A stretch of 36,269 nucleotides of DNA from Candidatus Woesearchaeota archaeon (GTDB lineage: Archaea > Nanobdellota > Nanobdellia > Woesearchaeales > CALCXY01): NCBI GenBank assembly GCA_937906345.1, contig CALCXY010000104.1, positions 1-36,269 on the forward strand, read 5' to 3'. Of this stretch, positions 1,929 through 29,080 are shown piece after piece; positions within the stretch are counted from its first letter, which is position 1, and the number at the start of each line of letters is the position of its first letter. The notes under the pieces were generated by a model that made no database searches, was not told where the DNA came from, and was given only the letters and a program-made list of their open reading frames with translations. The position numbers and the translations under genes were made by a program.

Positions 1929-2026
1929 ATGAACTACAAAACAATCACTGATATTATTGGAAAAGGAATTTTAGCAGGAACTATGGCTTTTGGTGGAATG
2001 CTACCAAGTTATGGAGAAGAGGCTAA
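1929..2026 (+). repeat. Signal-peptide DNA repeat, copy 1
   Basis: 98 bases identical to 3043-3140 and differing by one base from 3761-3858. Each starts at an ATG and ends within the AAG/AAA codon after 'EEA'. Copies 2 and 3 stay alike a few bases further. Confidence 0.9.
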
Positions 2027-2618: not shown

Positions 2619-2620
2619 AA

Positions 2621-3046: not shown

Positions 3047-3140
3047 ACTACAAAACAATCACTGATATTATTGGAAAAGGAATTTTAGCAGGAACTATGG
3101 CTTTTGGTGGAATGCTACCAAGTTATGGAGAAGAGGCTAA
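3043..3140 (+). repeat. Signal-peptide DNA repeat, copy 2
   Basis: 98 bases identical to 1929-2026. Confidence 0.9.
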
Positions 3141-3747: not shown

Positions 3748-3760
3748 TTTGGAGAAAAAA

Positions 3761-3858
3761 ATGAACTACAAAACAATCACTGATATTATTGGGAAAGGAA
3801 TTTTAGCAGGAACTATGGCTTTTGGTGGAATGCTACCAAGTTATGGAGAAGAGGCTAA
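3761..3858 (+). repeat. Signal-peptide DNA repeat, copy 3
   Basis: Differs from copies 1 and 2 by a single base (GGGAAAGG in place of GGAAAAGG, a silent Gly codon change). Confidence 0.9.
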
Positions 3859-4825
3859 AGCACCAAAGCAAAGCATAGAAGAAATAATGGAAGATGTTGA
3901 AAGAATGAATCAGGAAGCATTAGAAGATCTTCCTAATACTATTAATGATACTACAAATTTAATTAAAGCATTAAGACATGGATTAGAACAAGATGCTATT
4001 AAAGCTGATAAATATGATGCTAGAGTAAATGAGTATGCTAACTTAGCAGCTGCAGAGAGATATGCAATTGGATTAGCTGCTTTATTGAAAGATAAAGAAA
4101 AAGTTAAGCAGTATGATATTAAAGTTGATGATGGAAAACTTACTATTGCGATAAAGGATTTTGTCTTTACTCCTGATGGTTTTGAAAGACCTATAAGAAG
4201 AGTAGAAGCACAAAGTTTTGCTGATATTGTAGACTTAGAAGTTACTGATGATAATGGAAATGATGTAGGAGAGCCTAACAGAAATGTGAAAGCTGAAGTT
4301 TCTAGATTTGTTATGCATGTTCTTGGTGCAGGAAGAGAATCCTATGTTGGAGAATCACCTTCTGGCAATTTAGGAATGGGTGAAGATTTCAAAGCAGATT
4401 TTAGGACAGTTTTTGAATTAAAAAATTCGTATAGAAAGAGAAAAACATCTCAAGTTCCAAAGAATACTCCATTAAGTGATTTTTTACCTTATGTTAACAA
4501 TCTAAATGAGGTCGTTAAAGGGGAGAAAGGTGGAGATGGAATAGTGTTTTTACCTTTTAATAATTTTTCAAAAGAGGAGATACTATTGATTTTTAATGGA
4601 AGGTATAATTTCAATCCTTTGATTAGAGGAAAATTAGAATTACCAGGACAGGAAGAAACACCACTCTACAATACATTTGATAAAGCTCAAAAAGCAGAGC
4701 CAAATTCACAATATGTTGGTTTTGATTTGAAAACTGGAATGGTAAAAAGAATTCAAGATGAAAAGGGAAAACCCTATGTTCAAATTCAGACTAATCCAAG
4801 TGGAGAGCAGTATTTTAGGAAATAA
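3761..4825 (+). CDS. Secreted protein, family A paralog 3, with C-terminal extension
   Basis: 354 residues from ATG 3761, which follows a TTGGAG ribosome-binding site and matches the start of the other two copies; a TTG at 3749 is in frame but would put the ribosome-binding site inside the gene. The signal peptide is the shared one. Residues about 35-225 match paralog 2 ('ERPIRRVEAQSFADIVDL', 'GAGRESYVGESPSGNLG'). About 125 extra residues follow that neither paralog has; I see no known motif in them. Last gene of the operon, followed by a T-rich stretch. Confidence 0.7.
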   Translation: MNYKTITDIIGKGILAGTMAFGGMLPSYGEEAKAPKQSIEEIMEDVERMNQEALEDLPNTINDTTNLIKALRHGLEQDAIKADKYDARVNEYANLAAAERYAIGLAALLKDKEKVKQYDIKVDDGKLTIAIKDFVFTPDGFERPIRRVEAQSFADIVDLEVTDDNGNDVGEPNRNVKAEVSRFVMHVLGAGRESYVGESPSGNLGMGEDFKADFRTVFELKNSYRKRKTSQVPKNTPLSDFLPYVNNLNEVVKGEKGGDGIVFLPFNNFSKEEILLIFNGRYNFNPLIRGKLELPGQEETPLYNTFDKAQKAEPNSQYVGFDLKTGMVKRIQDEKGKPYVQIQTNPSGEQYFRK

Positions 4826-8090: not shown

Positions 8091-9182
8091 ATGGTAAGAA
8101 CAAAATTTCATTTAAAGGATTTTCCAGATAATCGTATTAGAATTAAATTCAAAGATAATATACAATTTATTAATCAGAATATTCAATTTTTTGGTTCGCT
8201 AAAAACTTTTGCAAATTTTTTGGGAATTAGTTCTCAAATGGTTCTTCAGTGGAAAAAACATAATCTGTTCATACCTCTAACACATATTAAGAAAATTGTA
8301 GATAGGAGAAATATTTCATGGATAAAATTAGAGAAATGTGTCGTTGCATATAAAAATCCCAATAGCGGATTAATTGTGCATAAACCTCGATTACCAATAG
8401 AAGAATGCCCTGAAATTTTTTCTATTATCTCCCACTTAATAGCAGATGGTAGTGTTAATAGAAATGGAATTCCCATTTACACCAACAAGAGTTTAGAGTT
8501 AATTAAAGAGTTTGATAGGTTGGTAAAAAAGGTCTTTGGAAAAATACAGAATTCAATATATAAAACAAAATCAGGTGCTTACCAGATAAGAACATCTAGA
8601 GTTATTGTTGACTTACTTTGCAAATTTTATGATGTTAATTTTAACTCTTTACAGGCTAGAATCCCAAGTAGATTATTTGAACTACCTTCTGATTACATTT
8701 GCGCCTTTCTTCGAGCATATGCAGATGACGAAGGAGCTGTAGACTTAAATCACAGAATAACAATCTATTCAAATAATGTTCATATTCTCGAAGGTATAAA
8801 AGATCTTTTATGGAATCATCTTGGTTTGAGTCACACTACGGGTGTATTAGTAAAAAATCGGAAAAATTATTATTTAACAATTAAACCTAAAAATCTGATG
8901 AGATATCAACAATTGATTGATTTTAAGCATCCATTAAAAAAGCAAAGACTCGCTCAAATTTTACGGATGAGAAAGAGAAAAAGGAACTCCACTTCCAAAA
9001 CAAGTCATCAAATACGGAAATTACTAAAGCGAAAAGATCGAACAAGTCCAGAGTTAGCATTGAAGTTAGGAATTTGTTTAAGTAATGTTCATCTACCACT
9101 CAAAAATTTAGAGAAAAAAGGAATAATCAGAAAAGCTAATAAACATGATAAGAGTCCTAATAGGACTGTTTGGAGGTATTGA
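8091..9182 (+). CDS. LAGLIDADG protein with N-terminal HTH and C-terminal winged helix
   Basis: 363 residues between the P0 and L12 genes, same strand. Residues about 35-60 ([19 protein letters not shown]) look like a helix-turn-helix. Two LAGLIDADG motifs follow: [11 protein letters not shown] (111-121, Asp119) and [13 protein letters not shown] (204-216, Asp212/213), with the usual spacing of a single-chain endonuclease. The last 70 residues look like a winged helix ('[21 protein letters not shown]'). It has its own start and stop, and its 3' end contains the ribosome-binding site of L12 (GGAGGT, 9173-9178). It may be a free-standing homing endonuclease or a WhiA-like domesticated regulator. 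Confidence 0.8.
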
Positions 9183-9184
9183 GA

Positions 9185-9502
9185 ATGGAATATGTGTATG
9201 CTGCCATGCTTTTGCACAAAGCAGGCCAAAAAGTAGAAGAAGGAAGTGTAAAGAAAGTTTTAGAAGCTGCTGGAGTCCAAGTGGATGATGGTAGAGTAAA
9301 AGCTTTAGTTGCATCCTTAGAAGGTGTAAATATTGATGAAGCTGTTGAAAAAGCTGTATCAGCACCAGTAGCTGCTGCTGCACCTGCAGAAGGTGGAGAA
9401 AACAAAGCCGAAGCAAAGAAAGAAGATAAGAAAGAAAGTGAAGAAGATGCGAAAAAAGCAGAAGAGCAAGCAGCAAGCGGGCTTGGCGCTTTATTTGGCT
9501 AA
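9185..9502 (+). CDS. rpl12: Ribosomal stalk protein P1 (archaeal L12)
   Basis: 105 residues from ATG 9185. '[17 protein letters not shown]' is the canonical archaeal L12 start. The dimerisation helices occupy residues 1-60. An Ala/Glu/Lys-rich hinge follows, and then the conserved factor-binding end GLGALFG. An in-frame TTG at 9170 precedes it but lies in the endonuclease gene and breaks the family start. The ATG is 2 bases after the LAGLIDADG stop. It binds P0 and recruits elongation factors. Confidence 0.96.
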
Positions 9503-12554: not shown

Positions 12555-13492
12555 GCTACTAAGTTTATTGGTTGATTATTTAAAGGTTGCCTTGTGTATT
12601 GAGTTTCATAATCATTAAAGGAAATGATATTTTCTGCTTTTCCTTGATAAAATTCTGGTTTATAGATACCAAAATGGAATAATGTGGATGTTGTTGTTCC
12701 ATCTGTTAGATATCCTTCTTTTGATAACTTTGCTATTTCATCAAATGTGTAGGGTTTTATTTTTTCAATGTTTTCAAAACCATCACCAACATTTTTTGAT
12801 TCTACTTTATCAAGATCTGGCACTTTGACAACAATAATAGCAACTTCCTTTTTGAAATATGTTGAATTAGTATTTGTTAAGGTTAACAGTTCAGCATCCT
12901 TTGGTGAAACTTTAATTCCTGTTTCTTCTTCTAGCTCACGAACAGCACCTTTTTTATAATCTTTTTTTTCATGTGGATCTAGTTGACCTCTTGGCACTTC
13001 AATATATTTTTTCCCAGGCATTGGACGTTCTTGGACAATTAATCCAATTCTTACTCTTCCATTCTTTGTATCATAAGGAAGGATTATAGCTCCTTCATTT
13101 TCTTCAATAAGTGGTTGGTCCCAAAGAGGTTTTCCATTTTCATCAGTAACTACCATGTGTTTGATAACTGCGAACTTTGGATTAGACCATTCTCCTGTTT
13201 CTGGATCTAATGTCCATCCTTTTTTATATTCTGGGAACTCTTCTAATACCTCATTAATAGGTCTTAGTTTGTATTTCAAATTTTTCTGATCAGGCATTTC
13301 TTGGAATTCAAAATCATCTAAGGAGAATTCTAAAGATCCAGGATCTTCAATTGAATCTTCTAAAGAATCATCTTCAAAGTATTCACCATCTTCAAGAGTT
13401 TCTTCTATTGAACCTTCAAAGTATTCAGAATCACTGTCTTCAAAATCTTGACTATCAGATTCAGTTGAATCTGTTTCGCAATTTTCTGACAT
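12551..13492 (-). CDS. Nudix hydrolase with acidic N-terminal extension
   Basis: 313 residues. Residues 1-75 are Asp/Glu/Ser-rich and probably disordered. The Nudix domain spans roughly 110-260 with GQLDPHEKKDYKKGAVRELE followed by EETGI. The core REXXEEXGI is intact, but there are two extra residues between the first Glu and REL compared with the standard Gx5Ex7REUXEEXGU. The core resembles ADP-ribose pyrophosphatase-type Nudix enzymes in general layout; the substrate is uncertain. It forms a two-gene unit with the PIN protein, from a TATA box at 13526-13534. Confidence 0.8.
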   Translation of the reverse strand: MSENCETDSTESDSQDFEDSDSEYFEGSIEETLEDGEYFEDDSLEDSIEDPGSLEFSLDDFEFQEMPDQKNLKYKLRPINEVLEEFPEYKKGWTLDPETGEWSNPKFAVIKHMVVTDENGKPLWDQPLIEENEGAIILPYDTKNGRVRIGLIVQERPMPGKKYIEVPRGQLDPHEKKDYKKGAVRELEEETGIKVSPKDAELLTLTNTNSTYFKKEVAIIVVKVPDLDKVESKNVGDGFENIEKIKPYTFDEIAKLSKEGYLTDGTTTSTLFHFGIYKPEFYQGKAENIISFNDYETQYTRQPLNNQPINLVA

Positions 13493-13525
13493 AAAACCAC
13501 CAAATTAGTAGAGGATGGTAATAGG

Positions 13526-13534
13526 TTATAAAAA
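13526..13534 (-). promoter_or_regulatory. TATA box of the Nudix-PIN operon
   Basis: TTTTTATAA on the minus strand, about 34-42 nt before ATG 13492. Confidence 0.5.
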
Positions 13535-13542
13535 GGTATGTT

Positions 13543-14751
13543 TTATTCAGGTGTAGGAACGTTATCCTTACCTAAGAAGTAACTAGCGAATTTTAAGGTT
13601 AATGTTCCAACTATGATACTATATAATAAGAATGCTAAAGATAAGTTAATTATTGTATTTAAAGCGTGTGCAGGAACATTTGGATTTCCTACTAATGTGC
13701 CTGATAATGATAATACTACAACAGCTACTGCTACACCTTTAGAAGCATTTAAAGTCATGAACACTAATTGTTTTTTAGTATATTCTTTATTTCTAAATGT
13801 TATTTTAAATGCAATAAATCTTATTAATAAGAAAATTGCAAATAAGGATCCTGATTTGATATAAAACGTGATGTTTAAAGGTAATACTATGATTAATCCT
13901 ACTAATACAAATACTAATATCTCTAGAATATTTCCTAAAATGTTTGAAAAATCAAATAATCTTTCTTTTTCTTTAAGATAAATAGATCCAGAGAATAATC
14001 CAAGTGTTGTTACAGCTAATACTCCATTACCTCCAAGGTTTTCTGCTAAAATATAAGTCATTAAGGCAGCAGTTAAAATTCCTAAGGTTGAAAGGTTTGA
14101 GGAATAATGGTTTTTCATATATTTTAAAACAATAATTCCTATTAATATACCAGCACCAATTCCAGCTACAAATTTTAATGTGAATAATTTGAGGATAACA
14201 GGTAATTCTGGAGTTGAAGCGTTTACTAAAAAGTCCATTAAGATAAAAGGGATTAAAACCATTAAAGGAGTGTTAATAATAGATTCTACTTCTAAGAAAC
14301 CTACAACAGGAGATTTTGATTTTCCCAGCATAGGAATAACTGCATCAGGTGAAGTTCCTGATAATAATGAAGTGAAGAGTAAAAGAATAATAACATGAGT
14401 AATTCCGAAAAGGTAATAGGTTGCTATTGATAAGAATGCAATATTTAATACCATCCAAATTAAAGAATATTTTAGAGCGTGAGAAGATATTTGATCAAAT
14501 TGTTTTAATTTAAATCCTGCAGCTCCAGAGAAAACGATTAATACTAACGCTAAGATTGCTGTTGATGATATAAAATCTTTAGGGAAACTAAATAATTTAG
14601 TTCCACCTTGTGTGAACAATCCTAAGAGCATACCTGCACCTAAAAGGAGTAATAAATTTGGAATTTTAAATTTATTTGAGATTATAGATGAGATTAATCC
14701 TATTAAGAATATGATTGTTATGAGTGTTAAATATAATAACGCTGAATCCAT
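13543..14751 (-). CDS. Cation/proton antiporter-like membrane protein (CPA family)
   Basis: 402 residues, about 11-12 membrane segments, no large soluble domain. 'SGTSPDAVIPML' and 'EVESIINTPLMVL' match the two helical signatures of CPA-type Na+/H+ antiporters (TSxxxVIP and ESxxTD/ND). The key Asp of the second motif is Thr here (codons AAC ACT at the N-T pair), which leaves the usual proton/cation carboxylate missing. A later 'LNASKGVAVAVVVLSLSG' also fits the family. Single gene with its own TATA box, directly downstream of the large minus-strand operon. Transport activity is therefore uncertain. Confidence 0.75.
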   Translation of the reverse strand: MDSALLYLTLITIIFLIGLISSIISNKFKIPNLLLLLGAGMLLGLFTQGGTKLFSFPKDFISSTAILALVLIVFSGAAGFKLKQFDQISSHALKYSLIWMVLNIAFLSIATYYLFGITHVIILLLFTSLLSGTSPDAVIPMLGKSKSPVVGFLEVESIINTPLMVLIPFILMDFLVNASTPELPVILKLFTLKFVAGIGAGILIGIIVLKYMKNHYSSNLSTLGILTAALMTYILAENLGGNGVLAVTTLGLFSGSIYLKEKERLFDFSNILGNILEILVFVLVGLIIVLPLNITFYIKSGSLFAIFLLIRFIAFKITFRNKEYTKKQLVFMTLNASKGVAVAVVVLSLSGTLVGNPNVPAHALNTIINLSLAFLLYSIIVGTLTLKFASYFLGKDNVPTPE

Positions 14752-14806: not shown

Positions 14807-15220
14807 TTATTTTTTTTTAAGAAACTTTGAAATATAATATAATGGATAAGCATGTAAATCAAATCCTTCTTTTAAAATACTTTTATATCTTCTATGCGCC
14901 CATTTATACTCTCCTTCACAAAATGCTTTATCTGCCCAAAATCTGTCTTCTTTTTCTTCAGAGAGAGTATTTAATTTTTCTCTATATTTATTTGTGTAAT
15001 ATTTAGCATCCATTACAGACCCTATTACAGGCAAAGATAATGCAACTGTTGATATTAACCCTATTAGGCAAATATTTTTTAATTTATTACCAATTTTATT
15101 TGCCCAATCAGGAAAATAATATTGTCTTTCTAAAAGGGGGACTTTGGGAGATCTTGTCCTTACTGGAATTTTTCTAACAGGTTCATATTCTAATATTTCT
15201 TTTAAATCGGTATAGTCCAT
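14807..15220 (-). CDS. DILDYEP-tag membrane protein 5
   Basis: 137 residues. It begins MDYTDLKEILEYEPVRKIPV, the shared N-terminal peptide of five proteins in this operon. Then come a basic Pro-containing linker, one membrane segment (about 'ICLIGLISTVALSLPVIG', residues 48-68) and a charged C-terminal body with 'KAFCEGEYKWAHRRYKSIL'. That stretch looks like a pair of short helices, perhaps a TPR-like hairpin. Last gene of the operon, 1 base after the preceding gene. No known family. An N-terminus in the cytoplasm is suggested by the basic residues before the membrane segment. Confidence 0.65.
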   Translation of the reverse strand: MDYTDLKEILEYEPVRKIPVRTRSPKVPLLERQYYFPDWANKIGNKLKNICLIGLISTVALSLPVIGSVMDAKYYTNKYREKLNTLSEEKEDRFWADKAFCEGEYKWAHRRYKSILKEGFDLHAYPLYYISKFLKKK

Positions 15221-15221
15221 T

Positions 15222-16598
15222 TTAATTAACTCCTGGCGGTGCTCTTAGGTTTCCCCAAGGATGCACTATTTTTTTTATAAATGATTTATCTCCTGTGAAA
15301 GGAGTAAAAGAATAAAATTGAGTATATCCTCTTTGTTCTCTTCTGTATCTATATGTAGGTTCTACCCAAACTCTCTTTACTTGAGGAGGAGCTCTTACTT
15401 TTACATAATGTCCTTCTATTTTTCTTTCTGTTCCTTGTCTTTTGTATACTTTTTGACCCCAAGTAATTTTAATATCCCATTTAGGAGGAGTATATTCATA
15501 CCTGGGAGGAATCCATTTTTGTTCATACCTCACAGTATTGTCTAAAACATTTTTATGATATCCATCCTTAACCTTTTTTTTGTAAAATGTTGGTGCAACT
15601 TCATTTGTTGTAGTATATGAAAATGATTTCACACCATCTAAAAAATCAGCCTTATTTGAGAATGAGTCATTTGCTGCACTTTGATAAAAATCTCTAAATA
15701 ATTGGATGTTTCTATCATCTGTATTCTCCTTTACTTTTGATTTTAAGTTACTAAATCTTTTTTTATAATCTAAAAGTCTAGAATCATGTATTCTTTTTAG
15801 AGCAGATATTCTAGATTCTATTTTAAATGGAGCTCTATGCATTGCTTTGAAAATAGAAGTATTCTCTGATCTTATGGCAGTATTTAATTTTCTACAAGCT
15901 AAAATAGCATCATCAAGTTTTTCATCATCAATTAGATCAGCAATATCTCTAAATTTTCCTTTATAATAATCTATTTTTACTCTTTGTTCTAATTCTGCAG
16001 AGATTAATCTTGATTCAGTTCTTGCCCGAGATACATCTGCTTTTTGTTTACTTTTTTTTGGCAATCTATCTTCTAAAGATACATCATGCTTAGTAAGAGG
16101 TCTTTGTAGATTGATAGGTTGAGATTTATATGAACGAACATTAGTGAGAAGAGTTTTCCTGTCTAATTTTGACTTGGATTTTGGATGTGAAATATGCATT
16201 AGACGAGGTTTAACTTCTTTTTGAACTGAAGGTTCATATAATAATGGTTTAGGTTTTTGAATTAAAGGTTCACTTTTTCTTTTTTTAGGTTTTCTTGGTT
16301 TTTCTTTTTTTAAAGGAGGTTCTTTAAACTCTATTTCTATTTTTTGAGGAGGTGAAGTTACTTGAACAATTTTAACATCTTTTTCTAATTCTTGAGTTTT
16401 AGTTGTTTGGCTAAAATAATTTATTACCCTTGTTAAAGGAGCATGTTTTGGCATAACAAAATACACACCAATATTTAGAGCTGCAAATAGTGCAATACCA
16501 GTTATAATTCTTTGACCTAAAGTTAATTCTCTTGTTTCAGGAGGGCTATGTCTAATAGGTTCATATTCTAAAATATCTCTTAGGTCTCTATGGTCCAT
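15222..16598 (-). CDS. DILDYEP-tag membrane protein 4, large basic protein
   Basis: 458 residues, the largest tag protein. It begins MDHRDLRDILEYEPIRHSPP. One membrane segment follows (residues 30-50, 'ITGIALFAALNIGVYFVMP'), then 130 residues of very basic Lys/Pro/Arg-rich sequence ('PRKPKKRKSEPLIQKPKP') that is probably disordered. A helical region spans about 190-310. The Tyr/Arg/Pro-rich end has repeated 'RYEQKWIPPRYEYTPPKW'-like strands. I recognise no domain. The tail looks like a surface or nucleic-acid-contacting region, but this is inference. Confidence 0.65.
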   Translation of the reverse strand: MDHRDLRDILEYEPIRHSPPETRELTLGQRIITGIALFAALNIGVYFVMPKHAPLTRVINYFSQTTKTQELEKDVKIVQVTSPPQKIEIEFKEPPLKKEKPRKPKKRKSEPLIQKPKPLLYEPSVQKEVKPRLMHISHPKSKSKLDRKTLLTNVRSYKSQPINLQRPLTKHDVSLEDRLPKKSKQKADVSRARTESRLISAELEQRVKIDYYKGKFRDIADLIDDEKLDDAILACRKLNTAIRSENTSIFKAMHRAPFKIESRISALKRIHDSRLLDYKKRFSNLKSKVKENTDDRNIQLFRDFYQSAANDSFSNKADFLDGVKSFSYTTTNEVAPTFYKKKVKDGYHKNVLDNTVRYEQKWIPPRYEYTPPKWDIKITWGQKVYKRQGTERKIEGHYVKVRAPPQVKRVWVEPTYRYRREQRGYTQFYSFTPFTGDKSFIKKIVHPWGNLRAPPGVN

Positions 16599-16602
16599 TT
16601 TA

Positions 16603-16974
16603 TTATTTAGTATATTTTTTGAATTTTCTATAAGACTGATCTGACATTGTTAACCATGATCCATCATCCATATAAAGAAACCATTTATTTCCTGTCCTAC
16701 CAACACCATGAGAATTACTTTCTAAATTTTTATAATGACTTCTTTCTGCAAGATAGGAGAATGTTTTAATTCCTCCTATTGTGGCTAAAACAAGAAGTCC
16801 AATGCATCCTAGTTTTATTAACATGTCTCCTATATTTGAATCATTAGTGGTTGAGATTCCTGGAGAATATGGACGAGATGGAGATGGTGAAGGAGATGGT
16901 GCAGGAGATGGAGGGATAGGAGTTCCTCTAATAGGTTCATAATCTAAAATATCTCTTAAATTATTGTAATCCAT
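16603..16974 (-). CDS. DILDYEP-tag membrane protein 3
   Basis: 123 residues. It begins MDYNNLRDILDYEPIRGTPI and then has a Pro/Ser repeat (PPSPAPSPSPSPSRP, residues 21-35) as a flexible spacer. One membrane segment ('KLGCIGLLVLATIGGI', about 52-70) follows. The short C-terminal body is rich in aromatic residues ('NKWFLYMDDGSWLTMSD'), a possible small beta hairpin. Spaced 1 base from the preceding gene and 4 from the following one. Confidence 0.65.
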   Translation of the reverse strand: MDYNNLRDILDYEPIRGTPIPPSPAPSPSPSPSRPYSPGISTTNDSNIGDMLIKLGCIGLLVLATIGGIKTFSYLAERSHYKNLESNSHGVGRTGNKWFLYMDDGSWLTMSDQSYRKFKKYTK

Positions 16975-16975
16975 T

Positions 16976-17266
16976 TTATCTACCTCTATAAGTTGAATTA
17001 TAACTTGAAGAACTTTGACGATTACGTCTATCCATTTCTATAGTCTTTAATTTCTCCCAATAATCATCATTGAATAAAAATTTTCCTGCAGCGAAAGTTA
17101 ATACAAGAGCTGCTATACCAATTAATAATCCCTTAGTTCTATCAGATATGTAAATATCAGGAAACGAAATTTCAGGAAATTTAAACCTTTTTCTAGGAGG
17201 TCTAGTAACTATAGGAGTTCTTTCAGGTTCATAATCTAAAATATCTCTTAAATTATCTTTATCCAT
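16976..17266 (-). CDS. DILDYEP-tag membrane protein 2
   Basis: 96 residues. It begins MDKDNLRDILDYEPERTPIV, followed by a basic linker (RPPRKRFKFP), one membrane segment ('GLLIGIAALVLTFAAGKFLF', about 47-66) and a short charged Ser/Tyr/Arg-rich tail. It overlaps the stop of the caspase-like gene by 8 bases. Confidence 0.65.
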   Translation of the reverse strand: MDKDNLRDILDYEPERTPIVTRPPRKRFKFPEISFPDIYISDRTKGLLIGIAALVLTFAAGKFLFNDDYWEKLKTIEMDRRNRQSSSSYNSTYRGR

Positions 17267-17843
17267 TTAGATCACCTTGGTAAGTATCTAAACAAACATC
17301 TGGTAAACCATTATAGCTCATTTCAAAAACTGTTAAACTCTTACTAAAAAAAAGACAATTTCTTCTGGGATTTTCCATAACATAATATCCTAAAGGAAAC
17401 CCTCCTTCTCCTCCACAAGTGAATTGAAACCAAAATCCTTTTTTTCTAGCTCTATTTCCATAAATTTCTTTTATTTCGTCTGTTGACATATCTGATTGGT
17501 ATAAATCCATATTATCATTGCTTCCATGACCAAGATTTACAATTGATTGATATTGATTATCCAATAAAACTTCTTTTACATCATCTTTAGTAGCTTTAAA
17601 GAACCAATCAACCCTTACATTTAGATTATTGAATGAATTATTAATTGTATGGGGGATAGAGCTTCTACAAAAATAATCTAACATACCAAGAGTTCCAGAT
17701 CCAACTAATGCAGCAGCTTTTTCTGAGTAAGATAAAGAATCTTGATTTAAAGTAGTTTGAAAATTATTTATACACCATCTGGGAAATTCTAATACCATTA
17801 AACCATATCTAAATAAATAATAATCAATTGTTTTTTCTTTCAT
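17259..17843 (-). CDS. Caspase/CHAT-like cysteine peptidase candidate
   Basis: 194 residues, the one gene in this stretch without the shared N-terminal peptide. Residues 98-110 read YQSIVNLGHGSND and residues 137-148 GFWFQFTCGGEG: a hydrophobic strand ending in GHG and a second ending in C-G-G. That is the His/Cys dyad arrangement of clan CD peptidases (caspases, CHAT, gingipains); His106 and Cys143 would be catalytic. The fold is small for a full caspase domain, which needs about 200 residues, so it may be minimal or inactive. The preceding 95 residues are helical. It overlaps the next gene by 8 bases and begins 61 bases after the previous one. Confidence 0.5.
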   Translation of the reverse strand: MKEKTIDYYLFRYGLMVLEFPRWCINNFQTTLNQDSLSYSEKAAALVGSGTLGMLDYFCRSSIPHTINNSFNNLNVRVDWFFKATKDDVKEVLLDNQYQSIVNLGHGSNDNMDLYQSDMSTDEIKEIYGNRARKKGFWFQFTCGGEGGFPLGYYVMENPRRNCLFFSKSLTVFEMSYNGLPDVCLDTYQGDLNG

Positions 17844-17904
17844 TTTTGAATTTCAGCATTTGTAAAATAATCTTTTTGTATGATCTGAATCATTTCGATT
17901 CATT

Positions 17905-18327
17905 TTATCTCCTCTTCATTCGTCTTACAAAATCATTCCAAGGCTTCACAATTTTTTTATTATAAGTGTCTGCAGCTTTGTTTCTTGCTCTATAATAAGA
18001 ATTTGTTATGTCTCGTTCAACACCATCCCAATACTCTTTAGATTCTCTTTCAGATTTTCTTCTCTCATAAGCTCTTCTATTTTCTTTTGCTCGTTCTCTT
18101 GCTTGATATAGAACTGCTGCTTCATGCCTTTTTTTTTCAATTTTATCTTTTTTTATTTTTTCCATATAACAGCAACTACCAATAGTTACTACTAATGCAA
18201 CTGAAGCAGCAAATACTTTTGCATAATCAGGAGTATTTGGATTTGGAGTTCTTGGAGAACTAGGAGTAGATGGAGAACCTCTAATGGGTTCAAAATCTAA
18301 TATGTCTCTTAAATCTCCGTGATCCAT
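17905..18327 (-). CDS. DILDYEP-tag membrane protein 1
   Basis: 140 residues. It begins MDHGDLRDILDFEPIRGSPS, then a Ser/Pro spacer (TPSSPRTPNPNTP), a membrane segment ('VFAASVALVVTIGSCCYM', about 38-56) and a highly basic helical coiled-coil body ('QARERAKENRRAYERRKSER') to the end. First of the five tag proteins, 8 bases after the second glycine-zipper gene. Confidence 0.65.
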   Translation of the reverse strand: MDHGDLRDILDFEPIRGSPSTPSSPRTPNPNTPDYAKVFAASVALVVTIGSCCYMEKIKKDKIEKKRHEAAVLYQARERAKENRRAYERRKSERESKEYWDGVERDITNSYYRARNKAADTYNKKIVKPWNDFVRRMKRR

Positions 18328-18335
18328 TTTAAATA

Positions 18336-19196
18336 TTATGATGCTAATGCAGCATCTATTTTTTCTTGAAAATAGGGTTTTTCATTTTGTACTTTGGCTT
18401 TATCCCAATAATATTTTCTTAGAGTATAAGGCATCTCAGAGGTAGATTTTTCATCCCAAAGAGAGGATAATAACCATCCATAAACAAATTGAGGAGCATT
18501 TCCTCTTTTAGGAATTGTATTTGGACCTTCTCCTTTGACATAATTGGATATTCCATCTTCTTCAAACTCAGGAAGATGTACAAACTTTACAGGAACTTGT
18601 TCATAACGAATTTGTTTAGCGATTTCTCTGTATTTTCCCCACCAGTTGGTATAAATTTTATTTATATTTTCATACTTTAACTTTAATTTTTCATTAATTT
18701 TTTTTAATTCATCTTTTCCAATACTATCTGGTGAATAAAAACCTGCTACATATCCTAAAGATGCTCCTGCAACTGTTCCTGCTATAACTGATGGAACTAA
18801 TGGGAAAACTAGAGCAGATACTAAACCAGTTAATAATCCTGGAACTGTTCCTAATGTAGCTCCAATAATTCCTAAATTTCTTCTTCCTTTTTTTGGAGAA
18901 GTTTCTACTCCATTTTCATAATGAACATGTGAAGCTAAGAACTCCTTTATTGCTTCTATTTTGAACATGGGTTCAAAAAAAACTCTTTCAGCATGGCCTG
19001 TATTTGCCATAGCATCTGCAATTTCTTCAATTACTTTGGTTTTATTTTCAACAGGAAGAGCATGGTAGACAATAACTTCATCTAATGATTTATTATTTAG
19101 CATAATAGGTTCATCATAAGGACAACAAAGAGTGGTCTCATTCTCATTTGTTGGTCTTAAAAAATATTCTAGGGTTGATTTTGTTTCTTGTTTCAT
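18336..19196 (-). CDS. Glycine-zipper membrane protein, paralog 2
   Basis: 286 residues. The N-terminal soluble part is followed by a long Gly/Ala-rich hydrophobic block (about 107-153, 'LGIIGATLGTVPGLLTGLV' then 'VIAGTVAGASLGYVAGF') that fits a glycine-zipper hairpin of two membrane helices. The C-terminal half aligns with the 263-residue paralog: IAKQIRYE / IAQRIRYN, LPEF / LPDF, 'PQFVYGWL' / 'PNWVYKAF', 'MPYTLRKYYWDKAK' / 'MPYATQWYYFNKSQ'. No known family. It starts 15 bases after the second E2-like candidate. Confidence 0.65.
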   Translation of the reverse strand: MKQETKSTLEYFLRPTNENETTLCCPYDEPIMLNNKSLDEVIVYHALPVENKTKVIEEIADAMANTGHAERVFFEPMFKIEAIKEFLASHVHYENGVETSPKKGRRNLGIIGATLGTVPGLLTGLVSALVFPLVPSVIAGTVAGASLGYVAGFYSPDSIGKDELKKINEKLKLKYENINKIYTNWWGKYREIAKQIRYEQVPVKFVHLPEFEEDGISNYVKGEGPNTIPKRGNAPQFVYGWLLSSLWDEKSTSEMPYTLRKYYWDKAKVQNEKPYFQEKIDAALAS

Positions 19197-19211: not shown

Positions 19212-20264
19212 TTAATCATTTATTCTTTTTGCATGAATAATAGCATCAGCTACAGTACTGATATATGCCATGACTTTTCTTATAGGATGAACTTCATTAT
19301 CTCCAAAATGATCTTTTATTAATTGATCAAAACGAATAGAACAACTTATATGGGGTTTTTGAGCAGGGACATACTTGTGGTCATTTCTTTCAGCAAAAAA
19401 ATAATTACATCCAGGATTTTCAATATTACCTCTTTCTAATAAAGAAATTGCAACAGCACTTTCATGATGTTCATATGATTTTTTATTATAACCTTCTCTA
19501 AATTCTGGAAGATATCTTAATAATAATCCTGAATCAGAATCAAAACCAAAACTGTCATAATCATAAATGCCATTATTAATTGTTACTAAATGAGATAGAG
19601 ATTTTATTTTTTTATCAAGCGCAAAATCTCGGTCAAGTCGAACAGCCTCATCTCCAATCCATTGTATTGCTTCAGCTCTACAATAATCATTAATACCTTT
19701 ATCAATCAACTCTTCAAAATTATCTAAATCTCCAATAAAATCTCCTGAAGTATACCCTCCATTATTTATTTTAACTATTCCCTTATCCTTTTTATTCCAA
19801 CATAAATTATAAACTCCCTCATTAATTAATATCAATTTTTTATTATTGAATAATATATCAAAAGGTAATCTTACCGGATTAGTATTTTCTACAGGAGATT
19901 CACTAAAAGAAAATCGAGTATTTCTCACTTTTTTTTCACTATTTAATTCTTCTAAGGACTCCAGGTAAGAAAACAATAATTCTTTTTTCCTTAAGGCTTT
20001 ATCCTCATAAGGCATTACTCCCCAACTCACTTCTGCCATTCTTTTTGAAATAGTGTGATATAATATCTCTTCATTTTTCTCTGCATATCTTCTAAATAAT
20101 GCTGATAAATGTCCTCGATCTCTGAGTTCAAATATCTTTTTTCCTAGCATAAAAAAATTTTGGGCAGTATCATCTATACCATTTGCAACATACAATCTAT
20201 GATCATAGATTACTACTGGACCTTTTCTAGCCCTTGCTGTTATCTCAGTTATTGGAAAATTCAT
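19212..20264 (-). CDS. E2-like candidate, paralog 2 (conserved Cys and His-Pro)
   Basis: 350 residues, paralog of 24153-25202. Shared blocks: 'ARxGPVVI' near the N-terminus, 'RKKELLxSYLES' at about 92-103, 'NxGIYDYDSFGFDxDSGLLLxYLPxFxEGYxKKSY', and the C-terminal 'ISC...VHPIRKVMAYI'. Cys308, 18 residues before His326-Pro327, is conserved in both. The layout recalls PRTRC-B-type E2 proteins, which have a catalytic Cys followed by F...HPN, but the similarity is weak. The E2 assignment rests mainly on the neighbouring E1-like and JAB genes. Spaced 1 base from the gene before it. No membrane segment. Confidence 0.4.
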   Translation of the reverse strand: MNFPITEITARARKGPVVIYDHRLYVANGIDDTAQNFFMLGKKIFELRDRGHLSALFRRYAEKNEEILYHTISKRMAEVSWGVMPYEDKALRKKELLFSYLESLEELNSEKKVRNTRFSFSESPVENTNPVRLPFDILFNNKKLILINEGVYNLCWNKKDKGIVKINNGGYTSGDFIGDLDNFEELIDKGINDYCRAEAIQWIGDEAVRLDRDFALDKKIKSLSHLVTINNGIYDYDSFGFDSDSGLLLRYLPEFREGYNKKSYEHHESAVAISLLERGNIENPGCNYFFAERNDHKYVPAQKPHISCSIRFDQLIKDHFGDNEVHPIRKVMAYISTVADAIIHAKRIND

Positions 20265-20265
20265 T

Positions 20266-21057
20266 TTATGTAGGAACCCTCACGGTTTGTGATTTATTGA
20301 AATAATACCATTGAGTTGCATAGGGCATACGTGAAACTACATCAGGATTTTTCATAACTGTTTGGAAAGCTTTGTAGACCCAATTTGGTGAAGTTCCTGT
20401 ACGTAAAGTTCCTAAAGTTGGAGTGTCAGGTAAAAGATATTGTCCTATATTATCATTAATAAAATCAGGCAATACTTCAAAATTAGGAGTTAAGTTGTTA
20501 TATCGTATTCTTTGAGCAATTTCATCTAGAAATTCTTGAACTTGAGTGTTTAATTCATTTTGATTGTTGGCTTTTTTAAATCTTGAATTTTCATTATGCC
20601 ATTTTTTTCCAGCAATTAGTAATGGAGCGGTATATCCTAACAATCCTCCTGTCAATGCTCCAACTATCATACCAGGAGGACCTCCAATAATTCCAGCTGC
20701 ACCTCCAGCAACTGCTCCAGCTGTTGCCATTTCACCATATGCTTTTGCAGGAATATCTAATACAGGAGTTTTTCCAGTAAAATAAGAGACAGCTATACTC
20801 CAAAATGCTTTTTTATAATTGTCAGACACCTCTGGGACAGGTTCATCATCTGGAAAATGAACTTTAGCTTCTTCTATTTGTGTTGCTATTCGATTTAAGG
20901 AATCAAATTCATCTGTAACAGGGAAAAAATGATACGCTTGGACTCTTGATATATTTGATTTTTCATTAACAATAGCTTCCAAATTATCAAGAAATAATAA
21001 TTCTTGCGTTTCGTTCAAGGGTAAAAATATTGCGTTGAGTTGGTTTATATCTGGCAT
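20266..21057 (-). CDS. Glycine-zipper membrane protein, paralog 1
   Basis: 263 residues. The soluble N-terminal part (1-110) is followed by a 38-residue Gly/Ala block ('AGAVAGGAAGIIGGPPGM' and 'IVGALTGGLLGYTAPLL', about 113-150), a glycine-zipper hairpin typical of membrane-inserting or oligomerising helices. The C-terminal domain is shared with 18336-19196. It overlaps the coiled-coil gene by 1 base. No signal peptide is seen; insertion would be through the central block. Function unknown. Confidence 0.65.
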   Translation of the reverse strand: MPDINQLNAIFLPLNETQELLFLDNLEAIVNEKSNISRVQAYHFFPVTDEFDSLNRIATQIEEAKVHFPDDEPVPEVSDNYKKAFWSIAVSYFTGKTPVLDIPAKAYGEMATAGAVAGGAAGIIGGPPGMIVGALTGGLLGYTAPLLIAGKKWHNENSRFKKANNQNELNTQVQEFLDEIAQRIRYNNLTPNFEVLPDFINDNIGQYLLPDTPTLGTLRTGTSPNWVYKAFQTVMKNPDVVSRMPYATQWYYFNKSQTVRVPT

Positions 21058-22019
21058 TATATTCCATCTCCTCGAAGCATTAAATCATTTTTTAATCGGT
21101 TATATGCTCTTTGGTGAGTATTATAATCTCTATTGAGTTGTTCTCGAGTTGATTTTTTAATAAAAATTGCAGACTTTTTTTGAGAAATTATTTCCATTTT
21201 ATCTCCAATAGAATCCATTAAATTTTTAGTTTCTGCAATTGCACAAACATATAATTCTTCATGAGATTTAGTTTTGTAAGCAGTTGCAGTAGATTGCAGA
21301 GTATTTAGATGCATTATCACAGAAGATGAATTACTTTCAGAGACAGATCTATATGCTGTTTGTCTTGCTTGAGTAAAATTTCCATAGGTAGTTGTTAAAC
21401 CTTCATAAGTTTTTTCTGAATCTTTTGCTCTTTTAGCTATTTTCTCTTGAGTTTGTCTTTTCTTTCTTTCATCTTCAAATTTTTTCTTCTCAGCTTGATA
21501 AGCATCAGAATTTTCCTTCCATCCTTTTTCAGCTTCATTCAATTTTACTTCTAGGTGAAATAATTTTCCACCATTTAGACGGTCATCTAGATATGATATG
21601 AATCTATTTATTGATTCTGTTGAATATGTTCTTGTGTCTGCAGGTTTACCCAGATCAATTTGCCCATATTCACTTCCAAGTTGATGAGTAACAGCTAATG
21701 CGCCATATACAGCAATTTGTAATGTTGATTGATTAGGATCATGCAATAATGTTCTTAATTGAGTTCCATGCTCTGTATCTCCTAAAATGCTAAGGTATGC
21801 ATCAACTAACAAAACTCTACCCATACAATTATCTTTGTTAATTTTTATTGCATGGAGAACTTCTGTATCGCTTAAGTATTTAATAAAAGAAGCTGCTAAC
21901 ATTTGCTCATGGACTTTAAGTTTTACAAATTTTCCGTTAGAGGGAGGTAGCTTATGTGGTTTTTTTGGCATTAAATCTTCTGCTACTTGGTCCAGTGTAA
22001 AACCTTTTTTCCCTGCCAT
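21057..22019 (-). CDS. Coiled-coil protein between E1-like and glycine-zipper genes
   Basis: 320 residues. Residues about 35-150 are a mixed soluble domain ('MGRVLLVDAYLSILGDTEHG', 'TLQIAVYGALAVTHQLG'). Residues 155-320 are helical and charged ('EKKKFEDERKKRQTQEKIAK'), a coiled coil. No known family. It lies 1 base after the E1-like gene and overlaps the following gene by 1 base, so it is a core part of the operon. It might be an adaptor or a substrate of the modification system. Confidence 0.6.
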   Translation of the reverse strand: MAGKKGFTLDQVAEDLMPKKPHKLPPSNGKFVKLKVHEQMLAASFIKYLSDTEVLHAIKINKDNCMGRVLLVDAYLSILGDTEHGTQLRTLLHDPNQSTLQIAVYGALAVTHQLGSEYGQIDLGKPADTRTYSTESINRFISYLDDRLNGGKLFHLEVKLNEAEKGWKENSDAYQAEKKKFEDERKKRQTQEKIAKRAKDSEKTYEGLTTTYGNFTQARQTAYRSVSESNSSSVIMHLNTLQSTATAYKTKSHEELYVCAIAETKNLMDSIGDKMEIISQKKSAIFIKKSTREQLNRDYNTHQRAYNRLKNDLMLRGDGI

Positions 22020-22020
22020 T

Positions 22021-23298
22021 TTAGTAAACTCCTAAGTTTGAATCATAATTTACTTGTTTTAAGGAAGGTGCACCATATGTTTTAGGTTGCAATACTTTTC
22101 TCATTTCATTTAACATCAAGGAAGCAGCAACTCTATTTGGAATGGTGGATGAGGGGAAAAAAGCACAATTATTTTTTCTTTTGGGAGTTGGTTCGTTCCA
22201 AACTGGATCTTGTTCGCTAATTGTTCCATTTTTTCCAGGAATGTAGTTTAAAACAACACTAGATGCACCATCCATTGCAGAACCAGAATTGATAAATGGA
22301 ATTTTATACATTTTTGCAAATTCTTGCAACAATAAACGAGTTTCATTAGAATCTGCACAGCTTAAAATGAGATCCACTTTATTATTATCAAAATATTGAG
22401 CCCAAGTATGATCAAATTTTTCAACTCTTGATTGATAATTTCCTTTAGGATTTAATTTTTTCATTTTATTAGCTAAGCTAACAGCTTTTGGAGCATTTTG
22501 AGAGTCAAAATACCAAAATTGGTTACCTAAATTACCTTGCTCAGCTGTGTCAAAATCTACAACTTCCATGTTTGAAGTTCTTATTATTGAAGCACCTCTT
22601 CCTATATTGCTACCAATGCCTCCAGCACCTACCATGAATACATTACCTGGAAGAGTAGCTTCAGTATCGTTGATCCCATTATAAGAAAATAACTCTTGAC
22701 GTGAATCATACTGCATAGGCATTACTGCTTTCCTTATTTCTTCTAGAACTAAAGAAGATAAAAGCATATTATTTACTACACCATTTTCTTGGTTTTGATA
22801 TTTGTTTACATTAAAATCAAATGCATCTTCTAATTTATTATTTTCATCAGTAAATAAGATAATTTGTTTTTTGGTTGATGAGCCTGAAATAAAAGGAATA
22901 GATTGATCTTGAGCATATTCATATGAAATAAATTTACTATTTGGATTATTTGTTAAATCAACAATAACGTTTGGTTTTGAGGTTACATACGAATCAATAT
23001 CATCTGGATCGTCAATTTCTAAAGTTATTGGAGAAAAATTTATTTCATGATATAATAATTTACAAAAATCTGCGACATTTTCAGCTCTTGATTTATGATT
23101 ATTCATATAAAACCAATCCTGATTTGATGCGGGTGAGTCTCCAATCATTGTAATAGAGCCGTAACCCATCTCAGTCAATCCTATTGCTGTTTCTGCTGCT
23201 AATTGATTTGAGCCTACTAGTGCAATATGAGCTAAGTCTATCTTCTTCTGATCCCAGCCTTTAATAGCAGATTGCCTACTATGTCTTTCACGTTCCAT
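22021..23298 (-). CDS. E1-like enzyme with two ThiF-type domains
   Basis: 425 residues. The N-terminal domain starts ERHSRQSAIKGW (the R-x-x-R-Q segment that gives the arginine finger in MoeB/ThiF/E1 proteins) and has a degenerate nucleotide loop GSNQLAAE (29-36). The second domain (about 215-400) has the intact loop GAGGIGS (224-230), VVDFD (Asp248, Asp250), an equivalent of NLxRQ reading NLGNQ, Lys271, and 'LILSCAD' with Asp316. Cys378 in NNCAFFPSS sits where E1 proteins carry the catalytic Cys. This is an inactive plus active adenylation domain pair in one chain, as in eukaryotic UBA1 and bacterial BilD. It would adenylate a ubiquitin-like C-terminus. It is 1 base after the JAB gene. Confidence 0.8.
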   Translation of the reverse strand: MERERHSRQSAIKGWDQKKIDLAHIALVGSNQLAAETAIGLTEMGYGSITMIGDSPASNQDWFYMNNHKSRAENVADFCKLLYHEINFSPITLEIDDPDDIDSYVTSKPNVIVDLTNNPNSKFISYEYAQDQSIPFISGSSTKKQIILFTDENNKLEDAFDFNVNKYQNQENGVVNNMLLSSLVLEEIRKAVMPMQYDSRQELFSYNGINDTEATLPGNVFMVGAGGIGSNIGRGASIIRTSNMEVVDFDTAEQGNLGNQFWYFDSQNAPKAVSLANKMKKLNPKGNYQSRVEKFDHTWAQYFDNNKVDLILSCADSNETRLLLQEFAKMYKIPFINSGSAMDGASSVVLNYIPGKNGTISEQDPVWNEPTPKRKNNCAFFPSSTIPNRVAASLMLNEMRKVLQPKTYGAPSLKQVNYDSNLGVY

Positions 23299-23299
23299 T

Positions 23300-24136
23300 T
23301 TACTTTTTTTTTACTTTTAATGCAATTTCCTCCATAATTTCTTTATCATCAAATGTTACATCATTCTCTACAACAATTTTTTCTAATCCTAATTCTCTTT
23401 CCTCAGAACCTGTATGGTCGCACACTTTACACCAATCTACTTTAGAAGCTTTAACATATGCTTCTCCTGCTGTATTAACAACCAAAGAATACGCAACTCC
23501 AGTTTCTTTTAATGCTCTGTCAATTGCAGGAGTTTCGGAAATAGCCATTTTTAGATCAGGCTTATCCGCTGAAAGGGTTAAGATACTATTACCAGAGTAA
23601 ATAGTTACACGATCCCCAAAAAGATCTAATTTGAAGTCATGCGATTCTGAATCAGTTTCCTGTTGAATAGTGAATGGAGATCTAAATTCGAGATCATAGG
23701 TTCTGCCATTTTCAGCAACTTTAATAGAGCCATCTCTCTTTACCACGAGTAAATTATTTGCCTCTCTAGAATATCTTACTCTAGAATTTAATGCCCAATC
23801 CTCCTTTAAATTATTAAGGTTATTGTCATCTGTTCCAGAATGAAAAACCCCACCATTTCCATGACTTTGCCAACATCCTAATATTTTTTGGCCTTTATTT
23901 ACTGCTTCATCTGCTGTATATACACCATCTAAAGGTCCTAATCTTCCAGATGCAGTTGACACCACTTGATTATGTGCTAAAACTACATCATGTACAGCTG
24001 TTCCATCTGCTGCTTGGGGAGCAGTTAGTAAACCATAACATTCTATACTTTGTTTATGGTATGTGCAAACACCTTGTGTGTATGCCATTATTTTATTAAA
24101 AGCTCCTTCAGTTATTTTCATTGTTTCTTGTTTCAT
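23300..24136 (-). CDS. JAB/MPN (JAMM) domain protein
   Basis: 278 residues from ATG 24136, which follows an AGGAGGAAT ribosome-binding site 16 bases after the previous stop; a longer frame to 24262 would overlap that gene. Glu32 in ECYGLL is followed by GCWQSHGNGGVFHSGTDDN (87-105), the JAMM core of JAB deubiquitinase-like peptidases. The motif is normally H-x-H-x10-D; here the first His is Gln90 (codon CAA), while His92, Ser100 and Asp103 are kept. The C-terminal half (120-278) is unrecognised and includes CKVC. It probably removes or processes a ubiquitin-like protein, if active. Confidence 0.75.
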   Translation of the reverse strand: MKQETMKITEGAFNKIMAYTQGVCTYHKQSIECYGLLTAPQAADGTAVHDVVLAHNQVVSTASGRLGPLDGVYTADEAVNKGQKILGCWQSHGNGGVFHSGTDDNNLNNLKEDWALNSRVRYSREANNLLVVKRDGSIKVAENGRTYDLEFRSPFTIQQETDSESHDFKLDLFGDRVTIYSGNSILTLSADKPDLKMAISETPAIDRALKETGVAYSLVVNTAGEAYVKASKVDWCKVCDHTGSEERELGLEKIVVENDVTFDDKEIMEEIALKVKKK

Positions 24137-24152
24137 TTTTTTATTCCTCCTA

Positions 24153-25202
24153 TTATTCGTGAATTCTTTTTTCATGAAGAATGCTGTCAGCAACAGTCCC
24201 AATATAAGCCATGACTTTTCTGATAGGATGAACACTCCTATTTTGGAATTCATTGTTAACAACTTGATTAAAACTTGCTTTGCAGCAAATTGATGATTTA
24301 GGTGCTGGAACGTAGGAATTGTTTTCCCATTGAGCGAAGAATCTAGCAGCTTCAGGATTCGTTAGATTTTTTTCCTCGAGCAGATAAATTGCAACAGCAC
24401 TCCCTTTATTTTGGTATGATTTCTTAGTGTAACCCTCATGAAAAGCTGGAAGATATGCAACTAAGAGACCTAACTCAGGATCAAACCCAAATACATCAAA
24501 ATTATACATACCATTTACAACAGGAACTATATTCGAGTAGGATTCGATTTTTCTATCTAAAATAATTTCCTTGTTCCTTAGTGCATTCTCATTTTTTACT
24601 TTGATAAAGGCTGATGCTTTTACAAAATTTCCTATTGCTGCATCAATACCTTGTTCAAACGAATCTAAGTCGCCTATATGGCTCCCTATTGTATACCAAT
24701 GATTATTTATTTTAAGAACTGATGTCTTTGGACGAGGGTGTAGATTATATACTTGGTTGTTAACGATAATTAATTTTTGATTCTTAAACAAATAATCAAA
24801 AGGAGGAGTTGCGTGTTCAAGGTCCTCTAATGTAGGTCTCACAAAAGGTGTTTTTTTTATTGAGTCATCTTTTTCATTTTCTTGCTCTTCACATGATTCT
24901 AAATAAGAGAGAAGAAGCTCTTTTTTTCTGATGACTTCCGATGTAGTTCCTTTATAATTTCCTGCTACCTTTGGAATTGTTCCTGATATATGATCTTCTA
25001 ATACTGCCTCATTCTTTGATTCATATCTTGAAAATATTTGTGATAAAGAACCTTTACTCTTTAACTCAAACCTATATCCACAAAATGAATAAAAGTCTTT
25101 AGCATCATGATTAGAGAATACAGCAGGCATAAATCTATTATTTATAATCACTACTGGCCCATTCCTTGCTTTTCTAGACAGTACTGTTGTAGGGAACATC
25201 AT
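24153..25202 (-). CDS. E2-like candidate, paralog 1 (conserved Cys and His-Pro)
   Basis: 349 residues from ATG 25202, chosen by alignment with the paralog (MMFP / MNFP); a TTG at 25217 is upstream in frame. It overlaps the 127-residue gene by 29 bases. It shares the blocks listed for 19212-20264 and ends 'HPIRKVMAYIGTVADSILHE'. Cys306 and Cys307 (SSICCKASF) and His325-Pro326 are the candidate active-site region; Cys307 aligns with Cys308 of the paralog. No clear E2 profile is visible by eye. The gene stands immediately before the JAB and E1-like genes, the position where E2 genes occur in bacterial ubiquitin-like operons. Confidence 0.4.
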   Translation of the reverse strand: MMFPTTVLSRKARNGPVVIINNRFMPAVFSNHDAKDFYSFCGYRFELKSKGSLSQIFSRYESKNEAVLEDHISGTIPKVAGNYKGTTSEVIRKKELLLSYLESCEEQENEKDDSIKKTPFVRPTLEDLEHATPPFDYLFKNQKLIIVNNQVYNLHPRPKTSVLKINNHWYTIGSHIGDLDSFEQGIDAAIGNFVKASAFIKVKNENALRNKEIILDRKIESYSNIVPVVNGMYNFDVFGFDPELGLLVAYLPAFHEGYTKKSYQNKGSAVAIYLLEEKNLTNPEAARFFAQWENNSYVPAPKSSICCKASFNQVVNNEFQNRSVHPIRKVMAYIGTVADSILHEKRIHE

Positions 25203-25557
25203 TTTTTCTGTATGCAATTGTTTGAGGTTTTGATATGACTAATTCCACTGCTCGAATTCTAGCTTCTACTTCACCAGCTGCAATCCCTCTTAACAATTCA
25301 GTTTGCATTACTTTATCTCCTGGATTAACAGGATACTGGTTACCATTACCATCTGAAATGTATAACGCATTACCAGAACCATCTAGATTTCTTTCCATTG
25401 TATTTACCAATGAACTTGAATCGTTTCTATTGTCATCCATCACTCTATTCATCATATCTTGAATAGTGATACTTGGTAGTTCTCTTGTTGCTATTTCTGT
25501 GTTAATTCTTTGTCCTGCTGGTCCATTTTTTAAGGCAACAGGTAAATTTTGGTTCAT
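25174..25557 (-). CDS. Short protein, first structural gene of the operon; possible ubiquitin-like modifier or substrate
   Basis: 127 residues, ribosome-binding site GGAGG 8 bases before ATG. Residues 1-60 are polar and probably disordered. Residues 64-127 ('ALYISDGNGNQYPVNPGDKV' onward) show strand-turn-strand, a helix ('MQTELLRGIAAGEVEARIRA') and two more strands, a size and order compatible with a beta-grasp domain. It has no Gly-Gly end: it stops at PYNSTV. It could still be a modifier after processing, but I cannot assign it. Preceded by a hairpin containing the operator-like dyad. Confidence 0.5.
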   Translation of the reverse strand: MNQNLPVALKNGPAGQRINTEIATRELPSITIQDMMNRVMDDNRNDSSSLVNTMERNLDGSGNALYISDGNGNQYPVNPGDKVMQTELLRGIAAGEVEARIRAVELVISKPQTIAYRKNDVPYNSTV

Positions 25558-29065: not shown

Positions 29066-29080
29066 ATGGTGGTTTTATGA
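29066..29080 (+). CDS. Four-codon leader frame coupled to the first kinase
   Basis: ATG GTG GTT TTA TGA: its stop overlaps the kinase ATG (ATGA), and the GAGGGGA ribosome-binding-like site (29054-29060) is spaced for this ATG rather than for the kinase start 17 bases away. It may serve only to deliver ribosomes to the kinase start. It could also be chance. Confidence 0.3.
   Translation: MVVL

Follow-up and report, generated by a model that had tools for sequence, protein, structure and literature searches.

Why should five otherwise unrelated membrane proteins, encoded in one archaeal operon, begin with the same short peptide? The question is raised by a 36,269-nucleotide stretch (the window) of contig CALCXY010000104.1 from Candidatus Woesearchaeota archaeon, part of a 1.64-Mb draft genome that consists of 123 contigs, is about 77% complete, and is the sole representative of its family in the comparisons made here. 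Its gene content, which includes archaeal ribosomal proteins and PhoU-like regulators, points in our view to a small DPANN-type archaeon. On the minus strand of the window, a series of genes encodes a candidate ubiquitin-like conjugation module (a small candidate modifier, E2-like proteins B1 and B2, a JAB-family isopeptidase, and an E1-like ThiF protein), a protein called C, two membrane proteins (M1 and M2), and five open reading frames (ORFs), T1 to T5, that start with a shared 16-residue peptide, referred to below as the tag. We tentatively read the tag as a short linear docking motif through which the five membrane proteins would assemble on a single partner, probably itself encoded in the operon, and give this reading a probability of about 0.45.

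Five operon proteins carry the same peptide at residue 1

Exactly five ORFs, all on the minus strand, match the pattern MDxx[DN]L[RK][DE]IL[DE][YF]EP[IVE]R from residue 1 (Table 1), which confirms the shared 16-mer that the first-pass annotation had placed on these genes. Residues M1, D2, L6, I9, L10, E13, P14, and R16 are invariant in all five tags, and substitutions in the core, LRDILDYEP, are conservative only (D/E, R/K, Y/F, and D/N). In every one of the five ORFs, no other start codon lies between the upstream stop and the tagged ATG. Since no start farther upstream is possible, the placement of the tag at residue 1 is independent of start choice. The tags score 62 to 70, whereas no other 16-mer in the window scores above 22, and a regular-expression search of the window found the tag core at the five T sites only.

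The tag was equally restricted in the genome as a whole. A degenerate DNA pattern, with at most one mismatch allowed, matched five places, while its reversed control matched none. A 16-position tag profile recovered T1 to T5 only (E values of 4.7e-10 to 1.6e-8) and gave no further match at E ≤ 0.5 in the draft genome, although copies on its missing contigs are possible. With E values this low and nothing else at that threshold, chance is excluded as the source of the likeness. Beyond this genome, the anchored pattern with two mismatches allowed had no match in 352 other genomes of the order, and the best profile match in 337 other genomes of the order had an E value of 0.0036, which is chance level for that many genomes. 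Pattern matches in GTDB r220 and IMG/VR (L078 to L082) were likewise rejected as chance level only; they comprised a Kitasatospora frame, a Cyclobacteriaceae match interrupted by stops, and one phage protein seen three times, which by eye we take to be PhoH-like. The search of the genome and its relatives that had been suggested in the first pass thus found the tag confined to this operon, both genome-wide and across the order.

Behind the tag, hydropathy analysis bore out a single membrane segment in each T protein. The spacer between tag and segment is 14 to 34 amino acids (aa) long and contains 12 to 29% proline. Its earlier description as proline-rich or basic holds for T1 and T3 (proline-rich) and for T2 and T5 (basic) but not for T4, in which the spacer is merely short. 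That the bodies are unrelated was upheld as well: past residue 16, compared with composition-preserving shuffles, none of the ten pairs was significantly similar after correction (best pair, T2 and T5, p = 0.014 uncorrected). Searches of 287 further genomes of the order returned no relative of the T1 or T4 body, and a Pfam scan of T1 to T5 gave no credible match for any of them. The run of five tagged genes is real but interrupted, with an untagged gene (X194) lying inside it.

Descent and selection of the tag

Of 101 pair comparisons at residues shared between tags, 74 show identical codons, whereas operon codon usage predicts 56 (p = 0.009). Because of this same-codon excess over the codon-bias expectation, the five tags are, as judged from their codons, related by descent. 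Pairwise estimates by the NG86 method gave replacement divergence (dN) of 0.08 to 0.28 over all pairs and silent divergence (dS) of 0.6 to 0.9 in eight pairs; one pair was saturated, and for T2 and T3 dS was 0.07. dN was lower than dS in eight of the nine pairs having an estimate. In a neutral simulation, the mean number of replacements exceeded the number seen in 10 of 10 tag pairs, with p values from 0.005 to 0.43 by pair. These comparisons support selection on the peptide only moderately, 16 codons being too few for a firm test.

The T2 and T3 tags are identical at 42 of 48 nucleotides and in 12 of 12 shared-residue codons. Similarity of their DNA spans positions −19 to about +57, and the bodies that follow are unrelated; this looks like recent copying or conversion of a 5′ end onto unrelated bodies. 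Among the tagged genes generally, DNA similarity sets in no more than about 20 bases from the ATG and stops near codons 14 to 28, so what was copied is, in essence, the tag with the beginning of the spacer. Given the weak silent excess together with the apparent recent copying in T2 and T3, the tag appears to behave like a movable 5′ module. The first-pass annotation had credited the conservation of the peptide to selection and had ruled out recent copying. The first part stands, weakly, in that silent changes exceed replacements in most pairs; the second part fails for T2 and T3.

Two other origins were rejected. Had whole genes been duplicated and their bodies then evolved fast, related bodies should still align at the silent divergence seen in the tags, and they do not. 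A purely nucleotide (RNA or regulatory) element is unlikely, as the similarity is in-frame and silent sites are variable. A reading that survives better, though we consider it unlikely, is that the tag is a relic of 5′-end duplication: repeated recombination would have put the same start codon and about 16 codons before different frames, the likeness would reflect descent plus gene conversion, and the peptide would have little or no function. The almost identical T2 and T3 tags on unrelated bodies, the same-codon excess indicating common descent, and the nonsignificance of most pairwise neutrality tests all favor such a relic. It is harder to reconcile with the silent excess in the other pairs, with core replacements that are all conservative, and with a similarity that begins near the ATG and keeps the reading frame in every one of the five genes.

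A docking peptide as the favored reading

A docking or sorting peptide appears to be the most economical reading of the tag. Its position at residue 1 in five of five proteins, its absence elsewhere in the genome and the order, its conservative core, a dN below dS in most pairs, the unrelated bodies, the spacer present in all five, and the operon context together point to docking. Of the three roles proposed in the first pass (sorting signal, docking peptide, or site recognized by modification enzymes), the first two share in this reading; no positive evidence was found for the third.

In the mechanism that we infer, L6, I9, L10, and Y/F12 could form one face of a short helix, with P14 as a cap, and the flexible spacer would link this docking motif to the single membrane segment. 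The five membrane proteins would bind a common partner via the tag. This partner would most likely be a product of the same operon: the E2-like B proteins, the C or M proteins, the E1, or the modifier itself. Docking would then gather the ubiquitin-like conjugation system, or its targets, at the membrane, and the tag would have spread within the operon as a 5′ module copied ahead of different bodies. A more ambitious version, which strikes us as rather unlikely, makes the tag a private address tag of archaeal ubiquitin-like conjugation; a receptor encoded in the operon would read it and build a membrane complex of five clients, and tag and reader would have arisen together, the tag serving as a plug-and-play 5′ module.

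Several observations weigh against docking. The hydrophobic moment of the tags (0.34 to 0.62) was not significantly above that of shuffles (p = 0.08 to 0.34), and signs of selection in such a short peptide are weak. At related loci encoding the conjugation module, no shared start tag of the strength seen in the window was found, paralogs aside. Finally, lysine plus arginine (K+R) counts flanking the membrane segment are 7 on the C side versus 2 on the N side in T1 and 3 versus 0 in T3. This charge distribution favors an N-outside topology for T1 and T3, in which case the tag would sit away from cytosolic enzymes. The N-terminal tails of T2 and T5, with 10 K+R each, carry no such N-outside signal.

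Should the tag prove to be a docking peptide, it would offer a direct, mutable handle on the role of a ubiquitin-like E1/E2/JAB system at the membrane of an uncultured archaeon. It would also be an example of a targeting motif copied as a module before unrelated proteins in one operon, and such cases show the birth of short targeting codes.

Other readings of the tag

We consider it quite unlikely that the ubiquitin-like machinery reads the tag as a degron or substrate mark, with the tagged proteins being substrates or being turned over via the tag. A short acidic hydrophobic peptide with a spacer is a common degron layout, which the tag resembles, and the tag is encoded in the same operon as the E1, JAB, and E2-like genes. 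However, each tag contains at most one lysine, and those of T1, T3, and T4 contain none; the tag itself is therefore no obvious isopeptide acceptor, and an acceptor would lie elsewhere. Tagged proteins would be expected outside the operon, yet none was found elsewhere in the draft genome, and the same machinery is present in related genomes without the tag.

A membrane sorting or insertion signal, acting in topology or targeting and not as a docking site, is very unlikely, even though all five carriers are single-pass membrane proteins. The tag resembles neither an N-terminal signal peptide nor a class III (pilin-like) signal: it is acidic and polar, lacks a hydrophobic core, and precedes by the full length of the spacer a hydrophobic segment that begins at residue 31 to 51. 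It is also absent from M1 and M2 of the operon and from the other membrane proteins of the genome.

Least probable, and dropped, is a link to a widespread N-terminal acidic motif (Phi-x-x-Phi-Leu) that JAB proteins carry in relatives' operons of the same type, with the tag as an extreme form of that motif. This pattern, picked post hoc, was seen at residues 1 to 30 in 13 of 40 JABs versus 10 of 282 control genes (p = 1e-7), and the JAB of locus L046 and a second protein of that operon (8494 to 9432 and 13381 to 14307) share a start-proximal peptide (IDALLQGDEPVE and LDDLLLGESPIE, respectively), but at 32 held-out class loci the fixed pattern occurred in 1 of 30 JABs, a background level, and the window's own JAB is without it. 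The L046 peptide is of separate interest as a possible independent shared N-terminal tag in the same type of operon.

The operon and its candidate ubiquitin-like module

T1 to T5 are colinear with the E1, JAB, E2-like, and modifier genes in a close-packed minus-strand series that runs from 25557 down to 14807 in the order modifier, B1, JAB, E1, C, M2, B2, M1, T1, X194, and T2 to T5 (Table 1). Most neighbors are separated by gaps of 1 to 8 bases or overlap.

Table 1. Coordinates of the tags, the tagged proteins, and the other genes of the operon
Feature	Coordinates	Strand	Basis
T1 tag (MDHGDLRDILDFEPIR)	18280..18327	-	profile E 4.7e-10
T1, 140 aa: tag, 21-aa Pro-rich spacer, membrane segment at residues 38-56, very basic charged tail	17905..18327	-	ORF, hydropathy
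T2 tag (MDKDNLRDILDYEPER)	17219..17266	-	profile E 1.6e-8
T2, 96 aa: tag, basic spacer, membrane segment at 47-65, short tail	16976..17266	-	ORF, hydropathy
T3 tag (MDYNNLRDILDYEPIR), DNA close to identical with T2 tag	16927..16974	-	profile E 7.8e-10; dS 0.07 vs T2
T3, 123 aa: tag, 34-aa Pro-rich spacer, membrane segment at 51-69, small C-terminal part	16603..16974	-	ORF, hydropathy
T4 tag (MDHRDLRDILEYEPIR)	16551..16598	-	profile E 2.6e-9
T4, 458 aa: tag, 14-aa spacer, membrane segment at 31-49, 409-aa Lys/Pro-rich C-terminal part	15222..16598	-	ORF, hydropathy
T5 tag (MDYTDLKEILEYEPVR)	15173..15220	-	profile E 1.2e-9
T5, 137 aa: tag, basic spacer, membrane segment at 50-68, tail	14807..15220	-	ORF, hydropathy
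Candidate ubiquitin-like modifier	25174..25557	-	position matches small proteins ending GG + short tail in relatives
B1, E2-like protein	24153..25217	-	family adjoins JAB/E1 in about 30 loci; window copy YVPAPKSSICC
JAB-family isopeptidase	23300..24262	-	Pfam PF14464, E 4e-5, 23.9 bits vs cutoff of 25
Two-domain E1-like ThiF protein	22021..23298	-	Pfam PF00899, E 5.7e-33
C	21057..22019	-	phmmer E 4e-12 to L038 8484-9848, homolog in nearest related locus
M2, M1 paralog	20266..21057	-	phmmer
B2, second E2-like copy	19212..20264	-	45% identity to B1
M1, membrane protein, Gly-rich hydrophobic stretch	18336..19196	-	phmmer E 5e-17 to M2
X194, untagged gene inside tagged run	17259..17843	-	homologs near E1 loci L056 and L060; no Pfam match

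In most relatives the small protein preceding B has GG and a short tail at its C terminus; exceptions are the window copy, which ends QTIAYRKNDVPYNSTV, and its nearest relative (L038, 13113 to 13526), which ends KDVGYQNAAV. Without Gly-Gly, the chemistry of maturation or attachment may differ in this genome and its nearest relative. About 20 of 30 members of the B family carry the signature HPF-x(5-10)-[IL]C, which by eye recalls the HPN...IC of E2 enzymes. The signature is diverged in B1 and B2 of the window, and neither Pfam nor PDB profiles gave a match that would support E2 identity. The JAB protein probably starts at about residue 43 of its ORF (MKQETMKITE), and its family adjoins E1 in nearly all related E1 loci. 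Homologs of the E1 were found at E ≤ 1e-10 in 59 of 288 genomes of the order. X194 has homologs in two 20-kb stretches around E1 loci (L056, 1442 to 2041, E = 5e-7; L060, 18690 to 19289, E = 3e-6), and we take its GHGS...TCGG residues (a conserved GHGS and a later Cys-Gly), as an unproven assignment, to recall clan CD (caspase/CHAT-like) peptidases. Fold predictions for B1 (with B2) and X194 reached a predicted local distance difference test (pLDDT) score of 32 and 34, respectively, and were not used.

The window also contains local duplicate pairs, namely, B1/B2, M1/M2, and two kinase proteins (29077 to 31590 and 31587 to 34229; one with a CARDB match), indicating repeated local duplication in this stretch. 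Elsewhere in the window (1929 to 4825), three adjacent secreted-type proteins have an identical N terminus, MNYKTITDIIGKGILAGTMAFGGMLPSYGEEAK, and related but diverged bodies, a second case of a strongly kept N terminus.

Related loci

The gene order modifier, B, JAB, E1 recurs at about 25 to 30 loci around E1 homologs in the order and at many class-level loci. The candidate ubiquitin-like module (22021 to 25557 in the window; L038 to L075 and L133 to L164) is thus seen in many families of the order and class, and PhoU-like regulators and protein kinases lie near several of its loci. None of the related loci shows a comparable shared start tag, which marks the tagged set as specific to this lineage and added to a module that is itself widespread. 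A limited literature search found no description of the modifier/E2-like/JAB/E1 module of these archaea.

Two wider searches were set aside. N-terminal similarity averaged 15.7 within operons versus 15.2 between operons (p = 0.001), a difference confounded by composition, and general coevolving operon tags were therefore rejected. Gibbs sampling for a motif on the JAB extensions scored little above shuffles.

Comparison with known systems

Prokaryotic ubiquitin-like conjugation operons combine E1, E2-like, and JAB genes (PMC1779556, PMC5654768). Like them, the archaeal operon encodes a ThiF E1 and a JAB, together with a small candidate modifier and a putative E2-like protein carrying a candidate active-site Cys. 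It differs in the five tagged membrane proteins and M1/M2, which are unseen in related loci, and in a modifier without di-glycine. With respect to type II cyclic oligonucleotide-based antiphage signaling systems (CBASS), no cyclase (CD-NTase) was found among ten operon proteins scanned, and PADLOC matched the E1 domain only (E1-E2, E = 2.6e-12).

For the tag itself, the closest parallels come from other settings. Encapsulation peptides of bacterial microcompartments are terminal amphipathic helices of about 18 residues, joined by a poorly conserved disordered linker to several cargo proteins, and act in docking and coassembly (PMC12339742). The archaeal tag is comparable in that 16 terminal residues are joined by a flexible linker to each of five operon proteins; unlike encapsulation peptides, it is carried by membrane proteins in every case, its sequence is unrelated, and no compartment is known. 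No shell (BMC-domain) protein was matched among the operon proteins scanned with Pfam. The Rubisco-binding motif of the Chlamydomonas pyrenoid is a short motif that, in one lineage, gathers unrelated and partly transmembrane proteins around Rubisco (PMC10473226). Here, too, one short, lineage-restricted motif occurs on otherwise unrelated proteins, transmembrane ones included; the Rubisco-binding motif, however, may be repeated within one protein and has Rubisco as its ligand, whereas the archaeal tag is a single copy strictly at residue 1. Membership in neither group is claimed, because the operon has no shell protein and the sequence is unrelated; encapsulation peptides and the Rubisco-binding motif are working precedents for the action of a shared tag of this kind.

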